In this document: piece by piece, positions 70 through 55,561 of the stretch | How the letters are laid out: every line of letters starts with the position of its first letter | Position numbering within the stretch: the first letter of the stretch is position 1 | Assembly (NCBI GenBank): GCA_903876795.1 | Contig: CAIRBK010000036.1 | Span: forward strand, 62,001-126,000 | Source of the DNA: an uncultured Verrucomicrobiota bacterium | Lineage (GTDB): Bacteria > Verrucomicrobiota > Verrucomicrobiia > Opitutales > Opitutaceae | DNA length: 64,000 bases | Direction: 5' to 3' | The notes under the pieces: model-generated | What the model was told of the DNA's origin: nothing | What the model saw: the letters and a program-made list of their open reading frames with translations, nothing else | Databases searched by the model: none | Position numbers and translations under genes: made by a program

Positions 70-180
70 ACACGGGGTACCGTGTCGGCGCCCAATGTTC
101 GTATTACGAACTTTGGCTGGCTGACGCGCCACCGCCATCGCCCTTAAACGGGCTCCTGTTTTTATCAGACCGATTCAATC

Positions 181-5953: not shown

Positions 5954-6054
5954 GGAGGGATAAGGGTGTGTGGAGTATCGGCGGGTGAAAAAGAGTGGCA
6001 ACCGGTTTGGCCGGGTGGCGGGTGCTTTATGAACTGAACGCTCGGTTAAGCCGG

Positions 6055-6079
6055 ACAACTAACCCATTGTGTTAGTTGT
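6055..6079. repeat. family A palindrome, copy A1: ACAACTAACCCATTGTGTTAGTTGT
   Basis: 9-bp perfect arms ACAACTAAC/GTTAGTTGT, 7-nt loop CCATTGT. Confidence 0.95.
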
Positions 6080-6985
6080 GCGGTGGGAGGTGCTGTGGAG
6101 TTGCCAGCTGTTCCAGAGGTTGTGCCAGAGGATGTAGCAGGTGGGGCCGAGGGCGACGAGGGGGCTGGCGTAGGTGAGCGCCAGGTAAAGGGTAAAACTG
6201 GTGTTCTTCTGGCCGAGCGACTGGCTGGCTTCGGGGCCGTAGGCGCGTCCGCCGATCCAGCGGCCGAGGGCGAAATTGGCCGCGCAGATCACGAGGGTGA
6301 CGGCCGCGATTTCCACCAGCACGGTGCGAGGGGCGCCGGCTTGCGTGCGCAGGAAATGGGAGGCGTTGGCCATGACGAGAAACAGGGTCAGCATCCATGC
6401 GCCGAACGAGACATCGCGCAGGCGTCCGGGCCAGGCGGCGGAGCGCGGGTGCAGCCTGCGCACCATGAGCGCAAGCACCAGCGGGGCGAAAATGAGCAAC
6501 GCAACGCTGCCGGTGACGCGGACGAAGAGCGTGGCGTCCACCATGCCGAGCACCCAGGGCAACAGCACCGGCAGGAGCGCGGCGACGGCGAGGTTGGTCA
6601 CGATGAAGGTCGCGGTCACATAGGCGACGTCGCGGCGCATGAAGCTGATGATCACGGGCGCGGCGGCGGCGGTCGGGGCCACGCCGGCGAAAAATCCCGC
6701 GAGCGCCACATCGCGTCCGCCGACTAGACCGCCCAGTGCGAGACCGGCGAAGGCCATCACGATATTGGCAACGAGGAGGAGCGCGTGGCTGCGTTGCAGG
6801 CTGCGGCGGCTCCAGGTCGTGCCCAGGAACGTGACGAACAACATGCCCATGATCAGCCACTGGATCGCGCCGGACCAGGCGTGGGCCTGCGGGATAAGCG
6901 CGCCGAGCAGGAAGGCGACGAGGATGGCGGCGGTGCGGGCGAGGCCGGTGAACATGGCGCCGTCACGCAACGCGACCCCGTGCAA
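6059..6985 (-). CDS. bile acid:sodium symporter family-like transporter
   Basis: TM-rich; GVAPTAAAAPVIISFMRRD, FALGRWIGGRAYGPEASQSLGQKNTSFTLYLALTYASPLVALGPTCY; stop codon lies in palindrome A1. Confidence 0.7.
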   Translation of the reverse strand: MHGVALRDGAMFTGLARTAAILVAFLLGALIPQAHAWSGAIQWLIMGMLFVTFLGTTWSRRSLQRSHALLLVANIVMAFAGLALGGLVGGRDVALAGFFAGVAPTAAAAPVIISFMRRDVAYVTATFIVTNLAVAALLPVLLPWVLGMVDATLFVRVTGSVALLIFAPLVLALMVRRLHPRSAAWPGRLRDVSFGAWMLTLFLVMANASHFLRTQAGAPRTVLVEIAAVTLVICAANFALGRWIGGRAYGPEASQSLGQKNTSFTLYLALTYASPLVALGPTCYILWHNLWNSWQLHSTSHRTTNTMG

Positions 6986-14529: not shown

Positions 14530-14556
14530 AACAACTAACCCATTATGTTAGTTGTT
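14530..14556. repeat. family A palindrome, copy A2: AACAACTAACCCATTATGTTAGTTGTT
   Basis: 10-bp perfect arms, loop CCATTAT. Confidence 0.95.
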
Positions 14557-30670: not shown

Positions 30671-30693
30671 AGTGTCACCTGTTAGGTGACGCC
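30671..30693. repeat. family B palindrome, copy B1: AGTGTCACCTGTTAGGTGACGCC
   Basis: AGTGTCACCT outer arm intact, inner arm AGGTGACGCC degenerate; extends to AAAGCC…GGCTTT. Confidence 0.9.
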
Positions 30694-31062
30694 GGCTTTC
30701 TGGTGTGTGGGCTTAGCGGGCGATTTTTTCTTACGGGCGTGGAGCCAGTGGAGCAGCGTGAGCGTGCGCTCGGCGTCGGGCAGGCGACGGCGGCCGATGA
30801 GAAAATCGTCGATACGCTGGCGCGGCAGGCCGAGTTCGCGGGCGAGGTTGGCTTTCTCACCGTATCTCCAGTCGAGGGTTCTCAGGGCGAGCGCGAGTTC
30901 GTTCCAGAGTGGGGTATCGGTTCCCGGTTTGAGTGCGGCGCCGCGGGGGCCTTGGGTAAGGGCGCGAGCTTTTTTCAAGGCACGCGCCGTTGTTTGGGCC
31001 GCATCGGCCAGGGCACCGGCGAGGGCTGCGGCCAGTTTCAGGCGAGGATGGATCGGTTTCAT
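30682..31062 (-). CDS. small HTH-like DNA-binding protein, paralogue of 54603-55016
   Basis: PGTDTPLWNELALALRTLDWRYGEKANLARELGLPRQRIDDFLIGRRRLPDAERTLTLLHWL; ATG 31062 or GTG 31089; stop TAA lies in palindrome B1. Confidence 0.85.
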   Translation of the reverse strand: MKPIHPRLKLAAALAGALADAAQTTARALKKARALTQGPRGAALKPGTDTPLWNELALALRTLDWRYGEKANLARELGLPRQRIDDFLIGRRRLPDAERTLTLLHWLHARKKKSPAKPTHQKAGVT

Positions 31063-31089
31063 GTCCACACCCGGGCAGATTTCAGCCAC

Positions 31090-31112
31090 AGTGTCACCTA
31101 TTAGGTGACACT
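31090..31112. repeat. family B palindrome, copy B2: AGTGTCACCTATTAGGTGACACT
   Basis: Perfect 10-bp arms around ATT. Confidence 0.97.
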
Positions 31113-43105: not shown

Positions 43106-43128
43106 ACTGTCACCCAATAGGTGACACT
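43106..43128. repeat. family B palindrome, copy B3 (solo): ACTGTCACCCAATAGGTGACACT
   Basis: Right arm identical to B2; left arm with two mismatches. Confidence 0.85.
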
Positions 43129-48809: not shown

Positions 48810-48836
48810 AACAACTAACCCATTGTGTTAGTTGTT
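48810..48836. repeat. family A palindrome, copy A3 (solo): AACAACTAACCCATTGTGTTAGTTGTT
   Basis: 10-bp perfect arms, loop CCATTGT; lies between divergent genes. Confidence 0.97.
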
Positions 48837-53337: not shown

Positions 53338-54447
53338 TCACCACGTGTCGACCGGGCCCTTGGGCACCGGGATCGACTCGCGGGCGAAGACGGGATCGTC
53401 GGGATCGCGCATGAACGAGGCGACCATGCGCTCGGGGGCGAACTTGGCCTTGAGCGCGCCGGATTCGTCGCAGAACTGCCGCCGCCAAACCAGAAACTCC
53501 GCGACCGCGGCGTCGAAGTCGGCGCGGGATTGGATGGTGATGATCCGCGCCTTGAACGGCTTGGCCGGACCGAACCTTTTCGCATACCAAGGGGCGACCT
53601 TGCGGAAGAGCTTCGCGCCGTGCTCCTCGCCGTAAAATTCGCAATACCGCTCGAAGTGCCGGCGCAGGACGCGCAGGCGCTCCTCAAACGCCGGTTCGGG
53701 CAGCAACTCTCCGGTGCGCAAGTAGTGGTCGGTGCGTTTGAAAATCCACGGATCGTAAAACGCCCCGCGGCCGACCGACACTCCGGCGCAGCCAGTCTGC
53801 TCGATCATGTGCCTGGCGGCCTCCGGTGTGGTCACGTCGCCGTTGCCGATCACCGGAATGTTCTTCACCGCCTGCACCACGGAACGGATGCCCACGAGGT
53901 TGACCTGGCCGGAAAAGCCCTGCGCGCGGGTGCGCCCGTGGACGAAGATCGCGGCGACCCCGGTGTCTTCCAGCACGCGGGCCAGGTCGGGCGCGGTGAG
54001 GTTGTCGTCGTCCCAGCCCAGGCGCATCTTGGCGGTCACGGGGATTTTCACCGCGTCGATCATGCAGCGCACCAACGCGGCCGTCTTGTCGAGCTCGGTC
54101 ATCATGGCGGACCCGCCGCCTATCTTGACGACCTTTTTCACGGGACAGCCCATGTTGATGTCCACCGATTGGGCGCCCATCTCCTGGCAGATGACGGCGG
54201 CGTCGCGCATCTCCCCGGCCACGGAGCCGAAGAGCTGGATGGCGAGCGGGCGGTCCTCGGCGCACGATTCGACGAGCTTGAGGGCGACTCGATTGCGCTC
54301 GATGAGGGAGCGGGCGTTGACGAGATCGGTGGTGGCCCAGCCGAGACCGCCGAGTTCGCGCACCGTCAGCCGCATGGGCAAGTTGGTGTAGCCGGCCAGC
54401 GGAGACAGGAAGAGATTCGAGGAAAGGGAGTGCGGACCGATGCGCAT
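53338..54447 (-). CDS. dus: tRNA-dihydrouridine synthase
   Basis: LFLSPLAGYTNLPMRLTVRELGG, SVDINMGCPVKKVVKIGGGSAMM, VPVTAKMRLGWDDDN-like, VHGRTRAQGFSG, VIGNGDVTTPEAA, VGRGAFYDPWIF. Confidence 0.93.
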   Translation of the reverse strand: MRIGPHSLSSNLFLSPLAGYTNLPMRLTVRELGGLGWATTDLVNARSLIERNRVALKLVESCAEDRPLAIQLFGSVAGEMRDAAVICQEMGAQSVDINMGCPVKKVVKIGGGSAMMTELDKTAALVRCMIDAVKIPVTAKMRLGWDDDNLTAPDLARVLEDTGVAAIFVHGRTRAQGFSGQVNLVGIRSVVQAVKNIPVIGNGDVTTPEAARHMIEQTGCAGVSVGRGAFYDPWIFKRTDHYLRTGELLPEPAFEERLRVLRRHFERYCEFYGEEHGAKLFRKVAPWYAKRFGPAKPFKARIITIQSRADFDAAVAEFLVWRRQFCDESGALKAKFAPERMVASFMRDPDDPVFARESIPVPKGPVDTW

Positions 54448-54545: not shown

Positions 54546-54572
54546 AACAACTAACACAATGGGTTGGTTTTC
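54546..54572. repeat. family A palindrome, copy A4 (inverted orientation, inner arm degenerate): AACAACTAACACAATGGGTTGGTTTTC
   Basis: Outer arm intact; loop ACAATGG is reverse complement of the other copies. Confidence 0.9.
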
Positions 54573-54602
54573 CGGTGCGAGTGCCGGGTGCGGGCAGGGA
54601 AA

Positions 54603-55016
54603 TCAGGGGTTCTCGGAGTCTTTGCGCGGGCGGATGGGTTTGGGGGTGGCGTAGGTCAGCGACGGATCGCGGCCTTCGGCCATTTCGCATAGCCAGTGGG
54701 CGAGGCGCAGGGTGATTTCCGCGTCGGGGAGTCTGGAGCGACCGGAAATATAGTCCGATAGCCGTTGCGGCGGGATGCCCAGGTGGCGCGCCAGCCGGAC
54801 CTTGCTGCCGTAGGGTTTGAGGCGGGCCTGGAGTTGGGTGGCGAGCACGTTCCAGAGCGGCGTGTCGTGTCCCGGTTGCCGCACCAGGCCGCCTGCGTTT
54901 TGGCGTTTAGGGCGCAGGGCTTCGGCGGCGCGGCGGGCCCCGGCTTCCGCAGCCATGGCGGCCGCGACGCCCAGCTCGCCCCACAATTTCAGCGCATAAG
55001 GAAGAGGAGTGTGCAT
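54603..55016 (-). CDS. small HTH-like DNA-binding protein, paralogue of 30682-31062
   Basis: PGHDTPLWNVLATQLQARLKPYGSKVRLARHLGIPPQRLSDYISGRSRLPDAEITLRLAHWL, about 37/62 identical by eye to the other copy. Confidence 0.88.
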   Translation of the reverse strand: MHTPLPYALKLWGELGVAAAMAAEAGARRAAEALRPKRQNAGGLVRQPGHDTPLWNVLATQLQARLKPYGSKVRLARHLGIPPQRLSDYISGRSRLPDAEITLRLAHWLCEMAEGRDPSLTYATPKPIRPRKDSENP

Positions 55017-55029
55017 GGAGTTTTTAAGA

Positions 55030-55056
55030 CACAGCTAACCCATTGTGTTAGTTGTT
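55030..55056. repeat. family A palindrome, copy A5 (inner arm degenerate): CACAGCTAACCCATTGTGTTAGTTGTT
   Basis: Outer arm GTTAGTTGTT intact; inner arm CAGCTAAC. Confidence 0.9.
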
Positions 55057-55132
55057 CAAGGGCGCGAGCGGGGAAATTTGGAGGTGAAAATGGGCGTTGG
55101 CGGCCGGGGTGGGGAACGGACAGGATCGGGAT

Positions 55133-55561
55133 ATGGAGGGAAAATCACCTGGGCCCGTGCTGCTTTACGACGGGGATTGCGGCTTGTGCAACGCGGTCGT
55201 GCGCCGCCTGCTCCGCCACGACCGGCGCGGTGTGCTCATGTTTGCCCCGCTCCAGGGGCGCACCGCCCAGGAGTTTTTGCGCGGCCGCGGGCTGAACACG
55301 GGGGATTTTGACAGCCTGGTGTTCGTCGCCGACCTGTCTCGCGAGGATTCGCCTTATTGGCTGAGGTCCGCCGGCGCGCTGTCCGCCTGCATGGAAATTG
55401 GCGGTTTCCACAGGCGTATCGCCCGCGTCCTGCGGCTCCTGCCGTCGTCGTGGCTCGACGTGGTTTACCGGCTGGTCGCGAGGTCACGCTACCGGCTCTT
55501 CGGGCGTTACCGTCCGACGCCGTTGCCCAGGCCGGAGTGGGCGCGGCGGATACTCGACTAG
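55133..55561 (+). CDS. thiol-disulfide oxidoreductase DCC family protein (DUF393)
   Basis: VLLYDGDCGLCNAVVRRLLRHDRRGVLMFAPLQG. Confidence 0.92.
   Translation: MEGKSPGPVLLYDGDCGLCNAVVRRLLRHDRRGVLMFAPLQGRTAQEFLRGRGLNTGDFDSLVFVADLSREDSPYWLRSAGALSACMEIGGFHRRIARVLRLLPSSWLDVVYRLVARSRYRLFGRYRPTPLPRPEWARRILD

Follow-up and report, generated by a model that had tools for sequence, protein, structure and literature searches.

The window, that is, the whole 64,000-nucleotide stretch analysed here from an uncultured bacterium of the Opitutaceae, carries at 54546-55056 an interval that encodes a 137-aa helix-turn-helix (HTH) protein, HTH-A, between dusB and a gene for a DCC1-like thiol-disulfide oxidoreductase (Table 1). 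The original prediction described this interval as a transposon-like unit and missed its coding content. The perfect 20-bp inverted repeat at its ends is real and beyond chance (0 in 100 shuffles), with the left end AACAACTAACACAATGGGTT at 54546-54565 (+) and its exact reverse complement at 55037-55056. Allowing up to three mismatches, AACAACTAACACAATGGGTT is matched 6 times in the window, against an expectation of 0 from 100 dinucleotide shuffles. Each end of the unit is a complete palindrome, built on the core CTAACCCATTGTGTTAG around a 7-nt centre that is asymmetric. The loop asymmetry and the diverged inner arms (GTTGGTTTT; CACAGCTAAC) were seen again as first described, no target-site duplication was visible at the unit, and decay of the inner arms makes the two copies bracketing HTH-A poor at folding. 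The right-hand copy is probably the operator of HTH-A.

This A-type palindrome occurs five times in the window, the genome has 39 copies within one mismatch, and about 41 recognisable copies were counted in the regions read. Four close inverted pairs (contigs C1, C33, C66 and C91) have a BIME-like arrangement. Based on gene calls from a simple codon-usage script, the context of 39 copies was divergent for 20, tandem for 14, convergent for 2 and within coding sequence for 2. HTH-A has two paralogues in the same genome (G000), and each of the three genes is paired with a palindrome type of its own, present in 41 (A), 18 (B) and 12 (C) copies. The HTH-B unit at 30672-31111 resembles that of HTH-A, with GTGTCACCTATTAGGTGACAC-type palindromes on both flanks.

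Table 1. Genes and palindromes of the window, with HTH-C from elsewhere in the same genome.
Feature	Position	Strand	Remarks
Solo C-type palindrome	97..111		GTTCGTATTACGAAC; cognate of HTH-C
A-type palindrome	6054..6080	+	Core at 6059; at 3' end of predicted gene
A-type palindrome	14530..14556	+	Core at 14535; intergenic
B-type palindrome	30672..30692		GTGTCACCTGTTAGGTGACGC; overlaps 3' end of HTH-B ORF
HTH-B	30685..31062	-	Paralogue of HTH-A
B-type palindrome	31091..31111		GTGTCACCTATTAGGTGACAC; upstream of HTH-B
Solo B-type palindrome	43107..43127		
A-type palindrome	48810..48836	+	Core at 48815; in divergent intergenic region
dusB (tRNA dihydrouridine synthase)	53338..54447	-	Pfam Dus, E=3e-78; syntenic neighbour
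Left A-type palindrome	54546..54572	-	Core 54551-54567; inner arm diverged; 3' of HTH-A stop
HTH-A	54603..55016	-	137 aa; apparently Cro/XRE-like DNA-binding protein; one of a set of 57 homologues
Right A-type palindrome	55030..55056	+	Core 55035-55051; about 20 bp upstream of HTH-A start codon
DCC1-like thiol-disulfide oxidoreductase (DUF393)	55097..55561	+	Pfam DCC1-like, E=1.2e-20; syntenic neighbour
HTH-C	G000:C36:21280-21576		Outside the window

HTH-A gave weak profile matches to HTH_3 (E=9e-4) and YdaS, which fall under the curated cut-offs, and a weak match to HigA. Its AlphaFold model (pLDDT 67 overall, mostly 80-88 over residues 60-120) has a helix-turn-helix at residues 71-91, with the recognition helix predicted at 83-91, and the Foldseek matches of this model are Cro/XRE-like but weak (E>0.1). 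A PDB sequence search returned nothing useful, tblastn of phages and plasmids gave no match, and neither a nuclease signature nor an HUH/Y1 domain was found in the protein. Homologues share the motif RPG..TPLWN...(HTH)...R.PDAE.TL.LL.WL and were found in 31 of 99 related genomes, every one within family f1; across 246 sampled genomes of the phylum, they were confined to f1 apart from one marginal match. The named records belong to Opitutus sp., Opitutaceae and uncultured Verrucomicrobia MAGs. HTH-A is apparently a Cro/XRE-like HTH protein, and its family seems to be undescribed and is restricted to Opitutaceae. The highest number of homologues seen in a single genome was eight (G237, L189).

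Inheritance of the HTH-A unit

The order dusB - HTH - DCC1-like gene is common to the window's genome, its sister G008 and the distant locus L120, and dusB adjoins an HTH gene also in G034, G075, G237 and G262, with the neighbours in L120, G237 and G262 recognised by eye from DNA. In four other genomes (G010, G009, G001 and G011) dusB lies directly beside the DCC1-like gene and the HTH gene is missing; losses of the gene are a simpler reading of this than several separate insertions. The HTH subfamilies keep distinct homes, among them a pdxH-like neighbour in 7 loci; their neighbours are subfamily-specific housekeeping genes, and no conserved transposase-like neighbour was found. As it keeps its syntenic home, the HTH gene looks like a resident of the locus, and a transposon is the less favoured reading. 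In G008 a tandem array of 160 bp x 3.6 with paired palindromes lies between dusB and the HTH gene (L064 1988-2564, contig C28).

We consider it very improbable that the ~510-bp interval is a transposon with 20-bp terminal inverted repeats, moved by a transposase acting in trans. The perfect repeats, and the dusB/DCC1-like junctions that lack the unit in some relatives, would fit such an element, but distant relatives have the unit at that single home, the palindromes flanking the same locus differ in sequence between species, and the other HTH subfamilies likewise stay put. A DNA transposon or MITE with such ends would be expected at several loci and with target-site duplications; the unit has neither, and its own genome yielded no further copy of the complete interval. 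Conservation at one syntenic locus, which the original prediction had itself named as evidence against a transposon, is what was found. The parts of that prediction that hold are the importance of the boundaries and the repetition and mobility of the palindromes. It is also likely that a protein of matching specificity acts in trans. The product encoded in the interval is a DNA-binding protein without a nuclease signature.

Pairing of HTH genes and palindromes across genomes

A matching palindrome on both flanks, i.e. the same palindrome with at most 3 of 19 mismatches, was found for 39 of the 57 HTH homologues, one of which (L046) scores through a duplicated contig stretch and not through its own palindrome, compared to 9 of 2000 random intervals. 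At other genes, called with the same codon-usage script, the figure was 1 of 93. Most homologues failing the rule have palindromes that are one-sided or diverged, and the four HTH loci inspected in later-sampled genomes all fit the pairing when read by eye. The flanking palindrome differs by lineage (GTAACCTATTGGGTTAC, TGTCACCTATTAGGTGACA, TGTCACGTAATACGTGACA, TGTCAACTATTGGTTGACA, ATGTTCGTATTACGAACAT and others).

A degenerate pattern, GTMACBYAWTRVGTKAC, which was composed after viewing the palindromes at about ten HTH loci, has up to 110 copies per genome and occurs in f1 only; the reversed-pattern control gave zero matches in nearly all genomes. Among 60 f1 genomes, at least ten pattern copies were present in 24 of 31 with an HTH gene and in 0 of 29 without (p=7.6e-11, a statistic that ignores kinship), where absences, here as in the other comparisons, may be assembly gaps because most of the genomes are draft MAGs. 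Across 36 f1 genomes, HTH gene number correlated with palindrome copies (rho 0.81), whereas the number of Y1_Tnp genes did not (rho -0.08), kinship being ignored in both statistics. The own-genus genomes without a detected HTH gene (G003, G006 and G012) have 0, 3 and 6 pattern copies, respectively, and about ten A-like palindromes persist in G012. Low pattern scores in the HTH-positive genomes G059, G064, G065 and G068 probably arise because the palindromes there differ.

Protein and palindrome also change together. Glu at residue 88 pairs with G at half-site position 7 (11:1 versus 4:30, p=1e-6), in a test that uses half-sites assigned by hand from the flanking palindromes and ignores kinship. 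Of the 137 residues, 82 and 84-88 belong to those with the strongest coupling to the half-sites, 95 and 49 also score high, and the coupled residues fall partly in the predicted recognition helix. Copies in the sister genome carry CCAACCCATTGTGTTGG, a symmetric T2C/A16G change relative to A, and the orthologous position upstream of the HTH start in G008 has the version of that genome, CCAACCCGTTGTGTTGG. At L120, with an HTH protein 45% identical, the palindrome at the same dusB locus is TTTAACCAATATGGTTAAA. The gene is so inherited in place while the palindromes disperse, the two changing in step.

Hairpin arms and mobility of the palindromes

In 56 A-like copies from four species, the 17-pair stem showed 107 cells changed on both sides compared to 49.8 after shuffling, and this covariation vanished when the pairing partner was slid. 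In G012 (L200-L209) and G002, outer arms have been exchanged as complementary blocks. For the B-type alone (15 copies), outer-arm covariation was not significant. Pairing of the stem exceeds the need of a single dimer site, which suggests, from the aligned copies, that pairing in the single strand, or copying of arms, matters.

Some hairpins have features of terminators. In G070 an HTH homologue (L047) lies between identical hairpins with A and T runs that resemble bidirectional terminators, and the G012 dusB locus has hairpins with terminator-like A/T runs. These hairpins and the compensatory stem changes would agree with palindromes that insulate the HTH gene, as RNA hairpins or as transcription terminators, a reading we find scarcely credible: no terminator was called at either HTH-A palindrome, no Rfam family scored above threshold, and few sites are convergent while many lie between divergent starts and inside coding sequence. 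A promoter scan at the HTH-A palindromes gave nothing.

By the gene calls of the codon-usage script, eight of the 15 B-type copies lie inside coding sequence, always in the one open frame, and encode the peptide KCHLIGDT or one close to it. The hosts are SRAP, aminotransferase class V, 3-beta-HSD/epimerase, Ogt, TatD and a urea-carboxylase-like protein, and folK-pabB carries two such copies. Of the folK-pabB orthologues, those of G000, G001, G010 and G007 carry the peptide, those of G009 and G011 have a decayed form, and those of G003, G005 and G070 lack it. The G002 orthologue (L174) has KTNTTGYF at the same linker, resembling the A-type peptide TTNTMGYL; this spot has apparently taken up palindromes of two families. 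As the orthologues compared are about 70% identical, the boundaries of these insertions are approximate. Within an allophanate hydrolase gene, an A copy is common to the window's genome and its sister. At orthologous sites of these two genomes, one clear aligned copy is shared (C88/C9, in a gene) and another probably so (C1/C36), and in one common intergenic region (C74/C9) the copies lie at different places. At the site of the 48815 copy, G002 and G012 have decayed counterparts, and no palindrome was found there in G001, G004, G005, G006 and G011.

These observations bear on the main rival explanation, in which an ordinary global regulator, the HTH protein, controls its own gene and a regulon whose operators, the palindromes, are kept by selection and move incidentally. 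XRE regulators often bind palindromes 5' of their own gene (PMC12565409), and the apparent Cro/XRE fold and the 19-bp dyad with one copy near the HTH start codon would suit such a role. A-type copies are also largely intergenic, but they show no enrichment at divergent promoters over background, their divergent share (20/36) being near that of the window's intergenic sequence by base count (211/447). The in-frame B-type copies, the turnover of sites between close species, and stems that extend past the core with copy-specific compensatory arms, needless for a shared binding site, argue against a regulon. We regard it as possible but rather unlikely.

Interpretation and comparison with known systems

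Comparison of the genomes demonstrates the co-occurrence of HTH gene and palindrome, their lineage-specific versions, the compensatory hairpin arms and the insertions absent from orthologues. The reading that we prefer, with a probability of about 0.55, is that the palindromes are REP-like and mobile, that the HTH protein binds their cognate dyad, and that the palindrome population depends on the HTH gene. A resident, vertically inherited Cro/XRE-like gene would be bracketed by its own cognate palindrome of about 17-27 bp, and the mobile part would be the solo palindrome, entering between genes and in frame within genes. An HTH dimer would bind the dyad, the palindrome upstream of the start codon would autoregulate the HTH gene, and the repeats would rely on the protein to spread or to be retained, much as REPINs rely on RAYT. 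No catalytic protein linked to the palindromes was found; cutting and joining may come from host replication or repair, or from an unlinked transposase. A bolder proposal, which we offer as speculation, is that a nuclease-free DNA-binding protein propagates or maintains mobile repeats: the HTH dimer would recruit host replication or repair to copy the hairpin, and regulator and sites, evolving together, would form a genomic symbiont, of which one genome would hold as many as three pairs, each independent.

REP-type repeats are widespread and, to our knowledge, the RAYT transposase is their sole well-supported partner. The HTH protein would be a second, unrelated partner, coupled to palindromes across a bacterial family. 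No description of such a pairing was found in the open-access literature, subscription papers being outside the scope of the search. The three pairs of a single genome, and the many versions of the sequences, offer natural replicates, and make testable cases of a DNA-binding protein and its scattered sites changing together and of short DNA entering genes in frame without breaking them.

Like REP/REPIN-RAYT systems, the palindromes are short hairpin repeats dispersed in tens of copies, with inverted pairs, tandem arrays and species-specific versions, around a vertically inherited gene flanked by repeats. REP repeats are also commoner in genomes bearing their gene (PMC8049555), as with the HTH gene here. 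However, the RAYT gene is a Y1/HUH transposase and repeat number tracks Y1, whereas the palindrome-flanked gene here is apparently Cro/XRE-like without Y1/HUH, and repeat number tracks HTH. A reading as classical REP/REPIN repeats, mobilised by a Y1 (RAYT) transposase and associated with HTH genes only secondarily, is in our view improbable. Inverted pairs and a tandem array, Y1 genes in most of these genomes and REP repeats reported inside genes of Opitutus terrae (PMC3733652) are in line with it. However, the two Y1 genes of the window's genome (L031 and L032, on contigs C86 and C24) are surrounded by repeats of other kinds (GGCCTAGGCTGGTATGG-like; GGACGGACC/GGTCCGTCC), which seem to be REP families in their own right, with no A-type palindrome found within 1.5 kb of either gene; roughly 20 palindromes occur in G029, which gave no Y1 match; and in the 56 aligned copies a GTAG at the hairpin foot was not consistent. 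Without a Y1 gene and a GTAG tag, the palindromes do not belong to REP/RAYT.

Other systems share single features. CGTC-tagged REPs have no dedicated transposase, and some of these palindromic repeats lie inside genes (PMC3733652), but the palindromes here have a specific HTH partner gene and no CGTC tag was seen in the aligned copies. Cro/XRE regulators such as YdaS and HigA antitoxins apparently resemble HTH-A in the HTH fold, by weak profile matches, and in the dyad near their own promoter, whereas HTH-A is flanked on both sides and its sites are mobile and occur also in coding sequence. Rickettsia palindromic elements (RPEs) are mobile palindromes found in frame in conserved protein genes (PMC2229807), and in-frame insertion in conserved genes is present here as well (KCHLIGDT; absent in some pabB orthologues). 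However, RPEs measure 105-146 bp, and the palindromes here are about 20-40 bp long, belong to Opitutaceae (Verrucomicrobiota) and have a linked HTH gene. By analogy, the nearest parallel in working is the RAYT-REPIN system.
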